Shown here: piece by piece, positions 30,462 through 57,032 of the stretch
How positions within the stretch are numbered: the first letter of the stretch is position 1
Layout: the number at the start of each line of letters is the position of its first letter
NCBI RefSeq assembly: GCF_007005445.1
Contig: NZ_CP041387.1
Location: 4,978,907-5,042,906 of the forward strand
Direction: 5' to 3'
DNA length: 64,000 nt
Source: Rhodopseudomonas palustris
GTDB lineage: Bacteria; Pseudomonadota; Alphaproteobacteria; Rhizobiales; Xanthobacteraceae
Made by a program: the position numbers and the translations under genes
Notes under the pieces: model-generated
What the model was told of the DNA's origin: nothing
Seen by the model: the letters and a program-made list of their open reading frames with translations, nothing else
Database searches by the model: none

Positions 30462-30743
30462 TCATCCCTTGGCGACGTAGAGCCGGCACCAGCCGTTCTC
30501 GCTGATCGGACTTTCGACCGTCACGCAAGCGTTCGGCGGCCTGAACTGCCGGCAGGTGCCGCAGCGCTTGGCTCCGCTCGGCGACTCCTGGTAGCCGGAA
30601 TCCTTGTGCGATGCCTTCTTGGTGACCTGCGCGGTCGCCGTCGCGACGCCGGCGCCGAGCAGCGCCGCGACGCCGGCAACGCCGGCTCCGGCCATCAGCA
30701 TCTTCCTCCGCGACAGCGGCTGATCCTTGGGATTGTGGTCCAT
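30462..30743 (-). CDS. pioC: high-potential iron-sulfur protein of the pio system
   Basis: A 93-residue HiPIP. The Tat signal is SRRKMLMAGAGVAGVAALLG (about residues 11-30) with a twin Arg, so the folded protein is exported to the periplasm. Four Cys ligate one 4Fe-4S cluster: the CGTC pair at about 61 and 64, the Cys in PPNACV and the Cys in NGWCRL. In R. palustris, PioC shuttles electrons from PioAB toward the photosynthetic reaction centre. It follows pioB after 139 bases that hold several hairpins; a GGGAGGA binding site precedes the ATG. Confidence 0.92.
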   Translation of the reverse strand: MDHNPKDQPLSRRKMLMAGAGVAGVAALLGAGVATATAQVTKKASHKDSGYQESPSGAKRCGTCRQFRPPNACVTVESPISENGWCRLYVAKG

Positions 30744-30882: not shown

Positions 30883-33315
30883 TCACCACTTGGCGTTCAG
30901 CGACACCTGGACGTATTGTGCGTCGTAGTTCGGATTGGTCGCGCCCATGTCGATCATCCGCGCCAGCGTGGTGTCGACCAGATACAGATAGGGCGACATC
31001 AGATCCTGCTGCCAATTGTCGACGCTGTTGCGCTCCCAGATGTAGCGGGCCTTGAGATAGACCTCTCCGGTCCAGCCCAGCTTCGCCACGATCGATGGGT
31101 CGATGGTGTGTTTGAGCGAGGCGTCGAGCCGCTGATAGTTGGTCGACACCGTCGGGAACGGCCGGTACACGGCGCCGCCGGCATTCGCCAGCATCGCGTA
31201 GCCGTTGTAGGGCCCGTAGTCCCAATCCTCGTGCGAGAACGAGATCGCGTAGCCGAGCTTGAAATCCAGCACGCCGGGGACCAGCTCCAGCGTGCTGGCG
31301 ATCAGGATCGTCTGCACCTTCTCGAGCGTGTTGCTGCCGAATGCGTTGATCGGCGTGGCGTTGGGCCTGCCGGCGGCCGAATTGGTCAGCGTGCCGCTGC
31401 CGACCTGGAAGCGGTCGTAGGTTTCGTACAGATACGACGCCTGGATCGACGATCCGGGTGTGAAGGTATAGGTGACGTCGACGCCGGCGTTCCAGGTGTT
31501 GTTCTTCTTCAAGCCGAAGAACAACGGATCGTCCGGGTAATCCTCAAACCGCAGGCCGGCGGTGGGAGACACCACGAAATCGCGGAAAATGCTGCCGCTC
31601 GGGCCGGAAATGTCGAGGAACGCATTGGCCTTGGTCTGGTTGCGGTTCGCCATGTCGAACTTGCGCAGCAGCATGTTGGTACCGTTGTTGGCGGTGGCGC
31701 TGTAGTAGGTCTCGCGCGCCATCGCCAAGCCGTCGTAATTGTCGTAGCGCCGTTCCGAATACTGGCCGCTGGTGCGCAGCGTCGCGATGTCGTGAACCTT
31801 GAAGTCGGCGGTCAGCTTGCCGATGAACTCGTTGGTGACGTTGGCGTCGCGACGGGTGCGGTCCCATTGCTCCCACCCGAAGCTGCTGCCGAGCGTCACC
31901 CACTTGGCGGGACGCCACTGCATTTCGCCGCTGGCATTCTGCTTGGTGTAGGACATCGACAGCGACCGCCGCGGGACGCCGGCGGCGATGCCGGTGGCGG
32001 ACGAATCCTCCACCACATAGTTCGGCATCAGCAATTCGGGCGTCTGATTGTCGTTGTCGTAATAGCGATAACGCGTGGTGGTACGGAATTCCGGCGTCCA
32101 CTGGGTGGTCGCGGTGGTGTTGTACAGCGCGGTGTTGACTTCACCGTTGAGGCTCGATGCCGGCAGCGGCGACGTCCTGACGTTCGGATTCGCCGTGAAC
32201 GGAATGAATGACTCGTTCTGCCGCATCGTCGAATACTGGAAGGTGCTGTTCCAGCGGGTCTTGAATGGCAGATCGATGCCGCTGGTCACCCCGGTGTTGT
32301 ACGCCTGATTGCTCGGCATCAGGCTGATCCGCGCCGCCGGTGAGAAGACCCGAGGGTTGCCGGCGTCGTAGAACGGATTCTGCACCGTGAACGAATCGAA
32401 GCTGTTGTCGTACAGCGAGAAGCCGCCGCCGACCTGGACGTTGTAGCGGCCGCCCCACGGCGTCGCGCCGAAATACTGGCCGCTCAGCTTGCCGATCTGC
32501 GTGGTGTCGTCGATCGGCCGCGGCGCCTGCATCTGCTGCAACGAAGTTCCGGCGAGGCCGCCGATCGGGAAGCCGGCGATCTGGGTGCCTTCGCGTTTTT
32601 CATGCGAGTACGCCGCCTTGACGTCCCAGTTTGGATCCGGCGTCCAGCGATACGCGGCCGAACCTTTGCGGCGGTCGATGCCGACGTCGATCAGGTTGGT
32701 CTTGCCAGCCAGGGCGTTGCTCACCGCGGCGCGCTGGGCCGGGCTCGTCGTGGTGGCCGGGGCGACCACCGACAATGCGCTGCCGGGGATCGTGACCGGG
32801 GTGGTCAGGTTGGCGGTACCGACGCCGTTCCAGATGCTGAGTGCGCTGGTGGTGTAGAGATGCGGGATCTCGTCCCACCCCAGGGTCAGGTAGTGTTCGC
32901 CGGCCTTGGAAAAGTCGAACACGTAGCGCTGATTGTTGTTGCCGATGTTGTCGGCGCGCAGTTCGTTCCAATAGGTGCCGTCCTTGGTCTGCAGCGTCAT
33001 CTGCAGATATTCGGCGTACAGGCCCGGTGCGATCCGGCCGTACTCCTCGAATTTGGATCGGTTGTTGCGAGCGCCGCCGCCGAACGGATTGGTCGGCGAC
33101 ACCCACGGCGTCGCCGACTTCGGCGGACGCTGGATGAACGAACGCCAGCCGGCTTCGAATTCGCCCGAATACGACCAGCCGCCGTGCGCCGCATCGAAAT
33201 CCGAAACCGAGCGTGCCGTCTCTTCCTTCGCTACCGGCTCAGCGGTCACACTCAGCGGCATTGCGGTCGCCACCGATACAGCCGCCGACGTCAGCAGCAA
33301 TTGCTTGAACGTCAT
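30883..33315 (-). CDS. pioB: outer-membrane beta-barrel porin of the pio electron conduit
   Basis: An 810-residue MtrB/PioB-family porin that sheathes the decaheme cytochrome across the outer membrane. The start MTFKQLLLTSA at 33,315 gives a standard signal peptide (cleavage after SVTA) and follows a GGGGGG binding site; the frame is open 36 bases further up. The mature protein shows the long alternation of polar and aromatic residues of a large barrel, and ends in NAKW, an aromatic terminus as barrel assembly requires. The length equals that of R. palustris PioB as I recall it. It lies 97 bases after pioA in the same direction. Confidence 0.93.
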   Translation of the reverse strand: MTFKQLLLTSAAVSVATAMPLSVTAEPVAKEETARSVSDFDAAHGGWSYSGEFEAGWRSFIQRPPKSATPWVSPTNPFGGGARNNRSKFEEYGRIAPGLYAEYLQMTLQTKDGTYWNELRADNIGNNNQRYVFDFSKAGEHYLTLGWDEIPHLYTTSALSIWNGVGTANLTTPVTIPGSALSVVAPATTTSPAQRAAVSNALAGKTNLIDVGIDRRKGSAAYRWTPDPNWDVKAAYSHEKREGTQIAGFPIGGLAGTSLQQMQAPRPIDDTTQIGKLSGQYFGATPWGGRYNVQVGGGFSLYDNSFDSFTVQNPFYDAGNPRVFSPAARISLMPSNQAYNTGVTSGIDLPFKTRWNSTFQYSTMRQNESFIPFTANPNVRTSPLPASSLNGEVNTALYNTTATTQWTPEFRTTTRYRYYDNDNQTPELLMPNYVVEDSSATGIAAGVPRRSLSMSYTKQNASGEMQWRPAKWVTLGSSFGWEQWDRTRRDANVTNEFIGKLTADFKVHDIATLRTSGQYSERRYDNYDGLAMARETYYSATANNGTNMLLRKFDMANRNQTKANAFLDISGPSGSIFRDFVVSPTAGLRFEDYPDDPLFFGLKKNNTWNAGVDVTYTFTPGSSIQASYLYETYDRFQVGSGTLTNSAAGRPNATPINAFGSNTLEKVQTILIASTLELVPGVLDFKLGYAISFSHEDWDYGPYNGYAMLANAGGAVYRPFPTVSTNYQRLDASLKHTIDPSIVAKLGWTGEVYLKARYIWERNSVDNWQQDLMSPYLYLVDTTLARMIDMGATNPNYDAQYVQVSLNAKW

Positions 33316-33411
33316 TTCAAAGGCCCCCCTTTGCGCGAGTCGTTCCATCACCCTCTGCGGCTTGTCGGAGTGACCAGCGACGGCGGCCGCAGCCGTCGCT
33401 GTTGCCGCCGG

Positions 33412-35064
33412 CTATCGGTGCCATCGCGATCCGGACGGGGAGTTCGAGCCGTGAATGTTGTTGTGGCAGTTCTGGCAGGCGTTACCGACCGCCCAGCGTG
33501 CCGCCGTCGGCAGGCCCGGCTGGTTGTGCGGGTTGGTATGGCACTGCTGGCACAGCCGCTGCCGCGCGACGATCAGCAGCGACTCGTGATTGGAGCCGTG
33601 CGGTTCGTGGCAGTTCAGGCAGTTTTCGCGCACCGGCGGGTGTTCGAACAGGAACGGTCCGCGCTTGTCGGCGTGGCAGGTGTAGCAGGTGTCGTTGACT
33701 GTCGCTTCCTTGAGCAGCTTTTCGGTGGCGCTGCCGTGCGGGTTGTGACAGTTGACGCAGGTGATTTTGGTTTCGCGGATCGGCATGTGCGAGGTGCGCT
33801 GCACCTGGGCCTTGCGGTCCTTGTGGCACTGGAAACAGGTGTCCATCACCTGCGCGGTCTTGAGCTGATTGCGCGGCGACACTTTGCGCATCACGGTGTG
33901 GCAGTTGACGCAGGCCAGTCCGCGAGACTCGTGTTGCGAGCCCTGCCAGTAGGTCTGGTCGCCCTTCTCGTGGCAGCTCAGGCAGACGCTGTTGGCCTCG
34001 GCGACATCGAAGCCGCGGCTGTCGGTGGGGCGGAACGAGCGGATGCCGCCTTTCTCGCGGCCGCCGCCGCCGTTGACATGGGCGGAGCCGGGGCCGTGGC
34101 AGGTCTCGCATTCCATCTTGCCCTGCGGCGTGATCTTGCCGGACTTGATGTTGCGGCCCATCACGGTCTGCTGGAATTCGTCGAACAGGCCGGCGTGGCA
34201 GGTCTCGCACGGCTTGGAGCCGACGAAGTAGCGGCCGTCCGGATCGCCCGGCGCCGGCGCCACCATCGGGGCCCGTCCCGCAGCCTCAGCCTTTGGTTCG
34301 CGCTTGGCGACCATCAGGACGGGACGGGACGAGTCCGCCTTGGCGGCGAGGATCTCGATGAAGCCAAACTGCTTCGGCGGCTCGACGGCGTCGTCGAAAT
34401 TCTCCAGCGCCACCCAGGTCGTCACCATGGCGGCATCGCGGATCAGCTCCGGCATCTGCGCCACGTAGTCGGGCTCGCGGGCAAGCCGCGCCGCCAGGGT
34501 GCGCCGGGTCTCGTGCGAACGCAGGATGCGCCGCTCGGTGATGCTGGCGAGGCGGAGCGTACCGGCCAGCCGCAGCGTCTGTTCGAACTGGGAGGCGCCG
34601 TCGATCGGCGGCAGCGGCAGCGCCGCGCTGGTCAGCCCGTGTCCGGCATAGCGGGTGTCGAAGCGCGGTCCGCCCGATGCCGACGCTGCGCCGTGCGGCG
34701 AAGCGCCGTGGGGCGAGGCACCATGGGGAGAGGCGCCGTGGCCGGCGCCGCTGCCATGTCCGTTGCCGAGGACGATGCCGGCATGGGCTGCGGCTGCGCC
34801 GGCGAAGCCATGGCCGGGCAGCGGCGTGAAGTTCGGTTCGGTCTTGCCGGCCCCTTGCAGGCCGCGCACGAAATCGACCAGTGCGTTGACGGACGGGTCG
34901 ACCGCGCCGACCTGACCGTCCGACGCGGCGCTGCGTTCCGGCTCGGCGCCGGCCGGCCACGTCGCGCAGGCCAGCGCTATCGACACGAACAGCGATGAAA
35001 GCCACCCGCGGCGGCCGCGCCGATTCCGGCCGCGCGCCGCCGCTGCCCCCCCAGAGCCCCCCAT
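33412..35064 (-). CDS. pioA: decaheme c-type cytochrome, photoferrotrophy
   Basis: A 550-residue periplasmic multiheme cytochrome that takes electrons from extracellular Fe(II) through PioB. Ten CxxCH sites are counted in order: CETCH, CETCH, CLSCH, CVNCH, CFQCH, CVNCH, CYTCH, CLNCH, CQQCH and CQNCH, all in the C-terminal 270 residues, as in MtrA/DmsE cytochromes. Before them is an extension of about 200 residues after the signal peptide, absent from MtrA, with a Gly/His-rich repeat. The ATG at 35,064 has a GGGGGACGGA binding site; a GTG at 35,091 is possible. First gene of pioABC. Confidence 0.94.
   Translation of the reverse strand: MGGSGGAAAARGRNRRGRRGWLSSLFVSIALACATWPAGAEPERSAASDGQVGAVDPSVNALVDFVRGLQGAGKTEPNFTPLPGHGFAGAAAAHAGIVLGNGHGSGAGHGASPHGASPHGASPHGAASASGGPRFDTRYAGHGLTSAALPLPPIDGASQFEQTLRLAGTLRLASITERRILRSHETRRTLAARLAREPDYVAQMPELIRDAAMVTTWVALENFDDAVEPPKQFGFIEILAAKADSSRPVLMVAKREPKAEAAGRAPMVAPAPGDPDGRYFVGSKPCETCHAGLFDEFQQTVMGRNIKSGKITPQGKMECETCHGPGSAHVNGGGGREKGGIRSFRPTDSRGFDVAEANSVCLSCHEKGDQTYWQGSQHESRGLACVNCHTVMRKVSPRNQLKTAQVMDTCFQCHKDRKAQVQRTSHMPIRETKITCVNCHNPHGSATEKLLKEATVNDTCYTCHADKRGPFLFEHPPVRENCLNCHEPHGSNHESLLIVARQRLCQQCHTNPHNQPGLPTAARWAVGNACQNCHNNIHGSNSPSGSRWHR
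34690..34743 (-). repeat. 15-base tandem repeat inside pioA
   Basis: Three and a half 15-base units (34,690, 34,705, 34,720, partial at 34,735) encode repeated GASPH in the PioA N-terminal extension. The units differ at several third positions, so the array is not freshly made, but such arrays change copy number easily. Confidence 0.8.
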
Positions 35065-35611
35065 TCCGTCCCCCGCATGTGCTCGTGGCACAATAAATTC
35101 GTCAAGCCAGCCGCGATCGGCGTCCGCGAATGGCGAACGACGTCGGTTCGAAGATCAATGGTAGTTTGAAAGAGTCCGATGGTGCAGGCGTTTCCTGCAT
35201 CGCGAAAATTGCCGGACGTTGCCGGAGACGATTAGTTATCGTTGAACTAAGCGTAACACGCGGCTTGGAACTTCGTATTTGATCGAAATCAAATGTGACA
35301 GGTAGTTAGCATATGCAGCAAGACGGCGTACTCGGGTGCCTTGGAGTCGAGTTCGATTCGAGCGCTAACTCTTCATTAGAACTAATCAATTTTACGGTGA
35401 CGCGGTGCCGCAACAAGGTAATTCAGGGTTCCTGATCGAGGGTTGTTGCGTCGTTCTGTCGCATGGATTGTACGAGGTCCTACGTCCGGTGAGATCCCGA
35501 GATCGGACATCTCCGGTGCATCATGACGCTACGAGGTCATTAGTTGCGTGCCCGCTCCGCCGGGGGCGGGCGTCATCTGCAAATCGTTGCTAATTGCTTC
35601 GATTGAAGGCG
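35065..35611. other. 547-base region between cysA and pioA: pio control region
   Basis: No gene is visible. It contains the FixK box at 35,279-35,292, a stretch of lower GC content (about 35,200-35,410) and a long presumed pioA leader. At the cysA side, GCCCGC (35,550-35,555) and GCGGGC (35,566-35,571) form a hairpin that may end the cysTWA transcript on the minus strand. Confidence 0.6.
35279..35292 (-). promoter_or_regulatory. FixK/FNR-type binding site upstream of pioA
   Basis: TTGATCGAAATCAA matches the FixK/FNR consensus TTGAT-N4-ATCAA at all ten fixed positions, and the flanking T and A extend the dyad to 16 bases. If it acts as a class II activator site, transcription starts near 35,244 and leaves an untranslated leader of about 180 bases before pioA. 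Control of pio by FixK is established in R. palustris TIE-1. Confidence 0.85.
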
Positions 35612-41792: not shown

Positions 41793-43715
41793 GTGAGTGA
41801 CGCCATGACCATCGCCGTTCCGCCCGCCTCGCTCGCCGCCGACGCCGTTCGTCCGCTGGTGCGCATCGTCATCGTCGGCCACGTCGACCACGGCAAGTCG
41901 ACGCTGGTCGGCCGCCTGCTGCACGAAACCGGTTCGCTGCCCGAAGGCAAGCTCGAGATGCTGAAGGCGGTCAGTGCCCGCCGCGGCATGCCGTTCGAGT
42001 GGTCGTTCCTGCTCGATGCGCTGCAGACCGAGCGCGACCAGGGCATCACCATCGACACCACCCAGATCCGCTTCCGCACGCCGTCGCGCGACGTGGTGCT
42101 GATCGACGCGCCCGGCCACGCCGAATTCCTGCGCAACATGATCACCGGCGCCTCGCAGGCCGACGGCGCGGTGCTGATCATCGACGCGCTCGAAGGCGTG
42201 CGCGATCAGACCCGGCGTCACGGCTATCTGCTGCAACTGCTCGGCATCAAGCAGGTCGCCGTGGTGGTCAACAAGATGGACCGCGTCGAGTTTTCGGCGG
42301 CGCGGTTCGGTGACATCAGCAACGAGATCACCGCACATCTGACCTCGCTCGGCGTGACGCCGACCGCCGTGATTCCGATCTCGGCCCGTGAGGGCGACGG
42401 CGTGGCGGCGCGCACCGACAATATCGCCTGGTACGACGGCCCGACCGTGGTCGAGGCGATCGACAAGCTGACGCCGGCGCAGCCGCTCGACGCGTTGCCG
42501 CTGCGCCTCGCCGTGCAGGCGATCTACAAATTCGACGATCGCCGCATCGTCGCCGGCCGTATCGAATCCGGGCATCTGCGGGCGGGCGACGACATCGTCA
42601 TCATGCCGGCCGGCAAGATCGCCAAGATCAAGACCGTCGAAGGTTGGCCGGTGACGCCGCTTGCAGGTTCGTTCGGCGCCGGCCGTTCGGTCGGCATCAC
42701 GCTCGACCGTGAGCTGTTCGTCGAACGCGGCGACGTGATCGGCCATGCCGGCACCGCGCCGCGCGATACCCGCCGGCTGCGCGCGCGGATTTTCTGGCTG
42801 CACGATCAGCCGCTCACCGCCGGCGCCTCGGTGCTGGTGCGGCTCGGCACCCGCGAGACCCGCGCCAACGTCGTGGCGATCGAGAAGGCGGTCGATCCCG
42901 GCGATCTCGCCAGCGAGGCCGCATCCGAGATCAAACGCAACCATGTCGGCGAAATCGATCTGTCGCTGTCGCAGCCGGTCGCGGCCGATCCGGCCGATAG
43001 CAATCCGCGCACCGGGCGGCTGGTGATCGAAATCAACGGCCGGATTGCGGGCGGCGGTCTGGTGCTCAGCGTCGATAGCGGCCAGCGCGCCGCGACCGCC
43101 GATATCGTCCCGGTGGAGTCCGCGCTGCTGCCGGGCGAACGCGCCGCGCGCTATCGCCACAACGGCGCGGTGTTGTGGTTCACCGGGCTGCCGGGCTCCG
43201 GCAAGACCACGATCGCGCGAGCGCTCGAGCGTCGGCTGTTCGATCGCGGCGGCTCGCCGATCCTGCTCGACGGCGACACGCTACGCGCCGGACTGAACAA
43301 TGACCTCGGCTTCTCGCCGGCGGATCGGGCGGAGAACATCCGCCGCCTCGCCGAGCTCGCCGCGCATCTGGCCGCCAATGGCCATGTTGCGATCGTTGCG
43401 GCAGTATCGCCGGCGCTCGCCGACCGCGCCGCGGCACGGCGCATCGCCGGTGATCGCTTCCGCGAGATCTATGTCGCGACCTCGGCTGACGTCTGCGAGC
43501 AGCGCGACCCGAAGGGGCACTACGCCAAGGCGCGTGCCGGCGGGTTGCCGAACTTCACCGGCATCGGCAATGACTATCAGCCGCCGACCGCCAGCGAACT
43601 GGTGCTCGACACCGCGGGTCTGTCGGTCAGCGAAGCCGTGGGGCAGGTAGAGACAATGCTGGCGCAGACCGACGTGCTGATCGAAGACCTGGCCGACCTC
43701 GCGGCGCACATCTGA
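41793..43715 (+). CDS. cysNC: bifunctional sulfate adenylyltransferase subunit 1 / APS kinase
   Basis: A 640-residue fusion. The N-terminal GTPase (CysN, about residues 25-440) has [21 protein letters not shown] and NKMDRVEF; the C-terminal APS kinase (CysC, about 455-640) has the P-loop GLPGSGKTT and [16 protein letters not shown]. It drives APS formation by GTP hydrolysis and makes PAPS, as NodQ does in rhizobia. The GTG at 41,793 is used; the ATG at 41,805 is equally possible. The adjacent cysH product looks APS-specific, so PAPS here probably serves sulfation. Confidence 0.94.
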
Positions 43716-56327: not shown

Positions 56328-57032
56328 ATGCAAAAGGGTGTCCTACGCGCGGCCGCGACGCGGAGCGCGCTGTTCTCGCAGTTGCCTGCGGCCGAGACGT
56401 CGCGGCTGCTGGCGGCGTCGACGCCGCGCCAGTTTCAGCCGGGTCAGGTGCTGTTTCATCAGGGCGACGCCCCGGAATATCTGTTTCAGATCGTGTCCGG
56501 ACTGGTGCGTATCACCCAGATCAACAGTGAGGGCGAGCAGATCACACTGCGGATCATGCGGCCGGGCGATCTGTGCTGTGTGGCGGCGTTTCGCCAGGAG
56601 ACCTATCCGGCGACCGCAACCGCGATCAAGGACACCACGGCGCTGGCGTGGCGAATTGGTTCGTTCGTGGCGCTAACCCGGCAACATCCCATGATTGCCG
56701 ACAACGTGGTGTGTATCGCCGGCGATCGTACGCGCGAGATGCTGCAGCGCGCGACCGAGATGACCGGCAAGTGCATCGCGCAGCGGATCGCCGCCTCGCT
56801 GCTGCGGTTGTCGGCCCAGGCCGGAACTACCACCGTGGACGGCATCCATATCGAATCCCCGGTGACCCGGGTCGATCTCGCCTCGATGGCCGGGGTCACT
56901 TATTTCACCGTGAGCCGCACCCTGAGCGCCTGGCAGAAACAGGGCCTGGTCAGAAGCGGCCGCCACCGCCTGACGATCCTGGACATGGCCCGGATTTCGG
57001 AGATCGCCGAGCCGCGGGCTGCCCGGGGGTGA
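56328..57032 (+). CDS. Crp/Fnr-family transcriptional regulator
   Basis: A 234-residue regulator. Start MQKGVLRAAA at 56,328; the frame is open upstream but gives unlikely residues. The effector domain (about 10-130) has the cupin-like FQPGQVLFHQGDAPEYLFQI, and the helix-turn-helix (about 175-225) reads VDLASMAGVTYFTVSRTLSA. The N-terminal Cys cluster of FNR is absent, so it is not an iron-sulfur oxygen sensor. It is divergent from the TonB receptor and is the obvious candidate for its control. Confidence 0.88.
   Translation: MQKGVLRAAATRSALFSQLPAAETSRLLAASTPRQFQPGQVLFHQGDAPEYLFQIVSGLVRITQINSEGEQITLRIMRPGDLCCVAAFRQETYPATATAIKDTTALAWRIGSFVALTRQHPMIADNVVCIAGDRTREMLQRATEMTGKCIAQRIAASLLRLSAQAGTTTVDGIHIESPVTRVDLASMAGVTYFTVSRTLSAWQKQGLVRSGRHRLTILDMARISEIAEPRAARG

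Follow-up and report, generated by a model that had tools for sequence, protein, structure and literature searches.

The pioABC operon of a Rhodopseudomonas strain is very probably transcribed from a promoter that FixK activates from a class II site, with a start near 35241 and an apparently constrained leader of ~177 nt ahead of pioA. We analyzed a 64-kb stretch of Rhodopseudomonas palustris DNA, henceforth the window, to which positions refer unless stated otherwise. A FixK-controlled pio promoter with a long leader is already known: it was mapped in R. palustris TIE-1 in 2010 (Bose & Newman, PMC3050613). The bare promoter finding matters little because it repeats a mapped promoter. Beyond PMC3050613, our analysis adds the apparent constraint on the leader, a poly-G ribosome-binding site (RBS) in most related pioA genes, and a non-FixK element at the position called FixK II. 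The constrained leader, with its poly-G RBS across four families of the order, offers a handle on extra pioABC regulation. A second handle is the promoter element, which FixK did not bind in vitro in the TIE-1 study (PMC3050613) and which is not a FixK box here. The TIE-1 authors state that "additional levels of pioABC regulation" await discovery (PMC3050613).

The features of the locus are collected in Table 1. The operon has the gene content of a photoferrotrophy operon, a PioA with ten CXXCH motifs followed by PioB, and orthologues of pioA have an adjoining pioB. We take the name and function of pioB from the operon, and the name of pioC from operon order; pioC had no Pfam match at E 0.001. 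The upstream neighbour of pioA encodes an ABC-transporter ATPase according to profile search and is presumably cysA.

Table 1. Coordinates of the pio genes and of observed and predicted regulatory features in the window
Feature	Position	Strand	Detail or basis
pioC, HiPIP-like	30462..30743	(-)	GGGAGG before ATG
pioB, presumed outer-membrane porin	30883..33315	(-)	likely start ATG 33315
GGGGGG run, pioB Shine-Dalgarno position	33324..33329	(-)	sequence and pioB count
pioA, decaheme cytochrome	33412..35064	(-)	ten CXXCH; begins ATGGGGGGCTCT
pioA leader	35065..35241	(-)	~177 nt; published geometry and conservation
GGGGG run, pioA Shine-Dalgarno position	35070..35074	(-)	alignment and orthologue count
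Hairpin H4 (GTGC / GCAC)	35079..35091	(-)	predicted, just 5' of the RBS; in own MFE of 4/5 strains
Hairpin H3	35113..35146	(-)	predicted; in own MFE of 4/5 strains
Hairpin H2 (TGCAGG / CCTGCA)	35183..35199	(-)	predicted; in own MFE of 5/5 strains
Hairpin H1 (CCGG / CCGG here)	35212..35225	(-)	predicted; absent from the window's own MFE
Predicted transcription start	35240..35243	(-)	transferred from TIE-1
FixK I box	35279..35292	(-)	TTGATTTCGATCAA in pioA reading direction; perfect box in Rhodopseudomonas loci
Conserved block GCTGCATATGCTAAC	35305..35319	(-)	directly 5' of FixK I; alignment
FixK II place, TTGATTAGTTCTAATGAAGAGTTAG	35365..35389	(-)	conserved 25-bp element, not a FixK box here

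The initial annotation had reported a perfect TTGAT-N4-ATCAA box, TTGATCGAAATCAA on the forward strand at 35279-35292, and both reading of the sequence and a motif scan confirmed it. The coordinates also bear out the 215 bases given between the near edge of the box and the pioA ATG (35064), and the 547-base gap between the end of the ABC-transporter ATPase gene (35612) and that ATG. This is the single perfect site within the window (shuffle mean 0.02; 2 of 100 shuffles had one). Tolerating one mismatch added one further site, at 43023, and two window sites at ≤1 mismatch are about the chance level (shuffle mean 0.90; two or more sites in 24 of 100 shuffles). The whole genome (5.04 Mb, one contig) contains 19 perfect FixK boxes and none of the backward control pattern. 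The frames beside these boxes were picked by a simple nearest-plausible-frame rule, and 15 adjoining proteins were named via profile search. Because they include the cbb3 oxidase subunit ccoN, 5-aminolevulinate synthase, benzoyl-CoA reductase subunit C and two Crp/Fnr regulators, the set fits a FixK regulon. The genome encodes a FixK2 orthologue, whose best solved chain is 4i2o_A, "FixK2 protein" (E 4.9e-113). Another perfect box, at genome positions 4724793-4724806, sits close to where two divergent frames start; one of these frames encodes a beta-lactamase-family protein (PF13354), and its ATG is preceded by a GGGGGG run. At 56781-56999 the window encodes one more regulator of the Crp/Fnr type, which has an HTH_Crp_2 domain.

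A perfect box is found 5' of pioA in all seven loci that carry the name Rhodopseudomonas or fall within the genus of the window. Relative to the pioA ATG it lies at -228 or -229 in five close strains, at -210 in R. infernalis and at -197 in R. rhenobacensis, which the taxonomy used assigns to a different genus within the family. Among the other pioA loci, 5 of 31 upstream stretches have a perfect box (L040, L045, L048, L050 and L053), and the upstream stretches examined for Blastochloris and Afifella pioA have none. The FixK I spacer is TTCG in this strain and CTCG in four relatives. The adjacent block GCTGCATATGCTAAC is identical in four of the five close strains, with one substitution in L035, and contains the 8-bp palindrome GCATATGC.

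In TIE-1, the pioABC start is a G located 177 bp before the ATG, as determined by cRACE and 5' RLM-RACE under three growth conditions, with FixK I at -44.5 and FixK II at -137.5 (Bose & Newman 2010, PMC3050613). In lacZ fusions, deletion of FixK I caused a dramatic drop in activity and deletion of FixK II a modest one, and purified FixK bound FixK I but not FixK II in vitro (EMSA; PMC3050613). FixK is not a simple activator under non-photoferrotrophic phototrophic conditions, because pioABC expression rose in the TIE-1 fixK mutant under those conditions (PMC3050613). A processed 5' end, an A at 152 bp before the ATG, lies inside the TIE-1 leader, and the authors suggested that it might matter for regulation (PMC3050613). 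The initial annotation suggested that the long leader leaves room for post-transcriptional control not yet described; the leader itself is not new, as the 2010 paper reports it together with its processed end. Its observation was confirmed and its interpretation is partly supported, right on the anatomy and wrong on the novelty.

The promoter analyzed here resembles that of TIE-1 in FixK I box-to-ATG geometry, leader length, pioABC order and FixK regulator. Since the experimental mapping is from TIE-1, another strain, the start coordinates given for the window are transferred. A 2-base gap separates box and start in this strain in the alignment with four relatives, and we therefore place the start at 35240-35243, with a predicted leader of 176-179 nt. 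Exactly 177 bases before the ATG the window has a C, whereas L016 and L035 have a G there, as TIE-1 does; in L017 and L036 the G is at 178. The transferred start puts the box centre 42.5-45.5 bases before it, depending on the base, compared with ~41.5-44.5 for class II sites. Judged by the TIE-1 geometry (PMC3050613), the class II assignment made in the initial annotation was probably right, as was its leader of ~180 bases (~177 nt by that geometry), and its start at 35244 falls within 4 bases of the range obtained by transferring the published -44.5 and 177-bp distances. At low oxygen, FixK would occupy the perfect box and, acting in class II mode, would drive transcription from a start ~45 bases downstream, near 35241. 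The transcript would then carry a leader of ~177 nt before pioA, as in TIE-1. Selection appears to act on this leader, which probably forms hairpins, and both the leader and the processed end of TIE-1 may have a regulatory role.

The perfect dyad is that of FNR/CRP class II promoters, and the box-to-start distance of ~42.5-45.5, transferred from TIE-1, would be similar to theirs, whereas the leader is longer than, e.g., that of ccoN, which is encoded in this genome too (221.5 from box centre to ATG, versus 69.5 for ccoN). The pio gap is not the longest of the genome, as two boxes are 282.5 and 315.5 away from a frame of the phosphoketolase type, with one or both of these boxes inside another frame. 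From the beginning of the box to the assigned ATG there are only 94 bases in L040 and 83 in L048, loci that belong to two other genera. The same arithmetic predicts leaders of only ~43 and ~32 nt for them, which makes a long leader dispensable.

We compared the position of FixK II among strains. The element TTGATTAGTTnnAATCAnGAGTTAG (25 bp, ≤3 mismatches) is confined to the pio promoter and is present in 5 of the 16 genomes of the genus. Identity to four relatives is 84% over 35365-35390 and 33% over the stretch 35364-35325. At this place, this strain has no TTGAT-N4-ATCAA at ≤2 mismatches; the registers TTAGT-TCTA-ATGAA and TTGAT-TAGT-TCTAA have 3 mismatches each. In L035, a register of the TTAGT-TCTA-ATGAA type has 2 mismatches, TTAGTTCCAATCAA, and spans -143 to -130 with its centre at -136.5, one base off the text of PMC3050613. 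That paper gives FixK II in TIE-1 as 129 bp upstream of the start in a legend and as centred at -137.5 in the text (PMC3050613). We equate the 25-bp element with TIE-1 FixK II by its position, and that it is bound by something other than FixK is a fair hypothesis. We rejected the element as the operator of a regulon, since no second copy within 3 mismatches was detected in the 16 genomes.

The Shine-Dalgarno positions of pioA and pioB are occupied by runs of G. We counted such runs among orthologues using a generous rule that accepts at least 5 G's located 3-20 nt before an in-frame ATG or GTG within the first 60 codons. A run was present in 31 of 38 pioA orthologues, comprising 31 of the 34 from the same order and none of the 4 from outside it. 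These runs measure 5 to 7 G's and spread over four families of the order, and 15 of the 38 orthologues have six or more G's. The background was 11 of 469 genes, based on simple-rule gene calls in stretches of twelve genomes, one of which (L137) itself includes a pioA. The Fisher p (1e-33) overstates the difference because related sequences are not independent. The set of 38 omits L026, whose frame is oddly long, the Elusimicrobia loci L027 and L028, L054, which the contig edge truncates at its 5' end, L058 (a fragment from the same genome as L054) and hits weaker than E 1e-50. By the same rule, there is no run in L026, L027, L028 or the weak hits L029-L031, and there is one in L058. For pioB, the rule gave 17 of 36, a count in which the starts are uncertain both ways; in L086 and L087 the run precedes a GTG, and translation may in truth begin elsewhere. 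The pioC gene of the window has GGGAGG before its ATG and no run of five. The pioA run persists where the surrounding leader sequence is lost. Among the papers listed by searches of an openly licensed library, no title or abstract opening concerned the function of the leader or of the RBS.

GGGGGG at the Shine-Dalgarno position is uncommon in this genome. The pattern GGGGGG-N3-9-ATG occurs 63 times counting overlapping registers, at 54 distinct places, and the reversed pattern 15 times. A functional regulon defined by poly-G Shine-Dalgarno sequences was considered and rejected, as nine frame-heading cases scanned against Pfam, a sample and not a survey, were functionally mixed.

We assessed the conservation of the leader by comparing the window to L016, L017, L035 and L036, whose PioA proteins are 83-85% identical to that of the window; we note that these five strains represent barely more than two lineages. 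Identity of the window to the four relatives is 69% in the leader, 47% in the upstream spacer (35620-35401) and 84% in the coding start. None of 10,000 permutations, which treat sites as independent, reached the difference between leader and spacer (0.69 vs 0.47). DNA similarity searches of the 16 genomes of the genus detected leader-like DNA at pio in 5 and none outside pio. RNAalifold predicted a consensus of four local hairpins, H1-H4. Variable columns make up 10 of 60 in the stems, 56 of 123 in all the non-stem leader (Fisher p 1.4e-4) and 13 of 15 in the loops, a test that is partly circular because the structure derives from the same alignment. In H2, 5/5 loop and 1/12 stem columns are variable. 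In a less circular test based on each strain's own fold, paired columns of the leader are less variable in all five strains (p 0.011 or less), whereas in the upstream control no strain has significantly less variable paired columns and two of the five are significantly opposite. Folding the leader, a check proposed in the initial annotation, predicts four hairpins with less variable stems; covariation is no better than in shuffles. Overall, the leader is conserved and is probably folded, short of a proven RNA switch.

What the leader is conserved for can be read in more than one way. There is a little under an even chance that the reasons are other than translational control, e.g., mRNA stability or undetected DNA sites past the start. 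The conservation comes without covariation, as one of 30 pairs changed on both sides, in H3, and 293 of 500 shuffles reach that number. Conserved DNA palindromes can mimic the stem effect, because the promoter stretch 35420-35242 gives the same paired/unpaired difference in three of the five strains. Rfam contains no family at gathering score within the window, and the single leader match with E up to 5 is at chance level (E 3.9). On the other side, the loops of H1, H2 and H4 vary while their stems hold, for which DNA sites alone are no obvious explanation.

It is rather unlikely that the leader acts as a post-transcriptional module in which translation of the conduit is set jointly by hairpins, by processing within the loop of H1 and by poly-G RBSs on pioA and pioB. 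The conservation along the whole leader, the variable loops and steadier stems, the own-fold contrast with the upstream control, the frequency of G runs in pioA and pioB over background, and the processed end of TIE-1 (PMC3050613) all favour such a module. As in structured bacterial leaders (Rfam cis-regulators), hairpins are predicted 5' of the RBS; the lack of an Rfam family sets the pioA leader apart from them. The near-absence of double-changed pairs and the mimicry by the promoter stretch weigh against the module, as does the short predicted leader of L040 and L048. The own-fold effect disappears for L017 with slightly shifted ends (p 0.26), and fold z-scores in the three strains scored are -2.3 (window), -0.4 (L035) and -2.3 (L016). 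The base at 152 before the ATG differs among strains (T in the window, C in L016, A in L017 and L035, G in L036); that of L035 matches the processed position of TIE-1 and sits in the predicted H1 loop. The simplest mechanism, a switch in which a 5' strand masks the Shine-Dalgarno sequence until processing releases it, was rejected as a conserved one: predicted pairing of leader nt 1-25 with the G run is 0.80 in the window and 0.00-0.02 in the four relatives. An upstream ORF in the leader (ATGCAGG...) was likewise rejected, as by eye indels interrupt its frame from strain to strain and no RBS is evident. A hairpin right before the G run is not a general pioA trait either; Afifella and R. rhenobacensis have a strong one, several genera have none, and the z-scores of 22 loci are of mixed sign.

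A more elaborate proposal, which we consider improbable, is that the pio mRNA is a conserved module of post-transcriptional control whose folded leader is cut in the first hairpin loop and whose pioA and pioB poly-G RBSs are read by a shared trans factor that sets the cytochrome and porin of the conduit together, with the FixK II site of TIE-1 binding another, pio-specific regulator. The trans factor might be, e.g., a C-rich small RNA such as RF00519, of which this genome has two copies.

Initiation of pioA at GTG 35091, which would shorten the leader to ~150 nt, is very unlikely: the frame is open to that codon in the window, but in four close relatives it reaches just 18 nt upstream of the ATG, the G run and ATGGGGGGCT are kept in all seven aligned loci, and the ATG is used for TIE-1 in PMC3050613. 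The sequence ATGGGGGGCT at the pioA start (35055-35064) is also identical in L040, from another genus, and the codons that follow it diverge.
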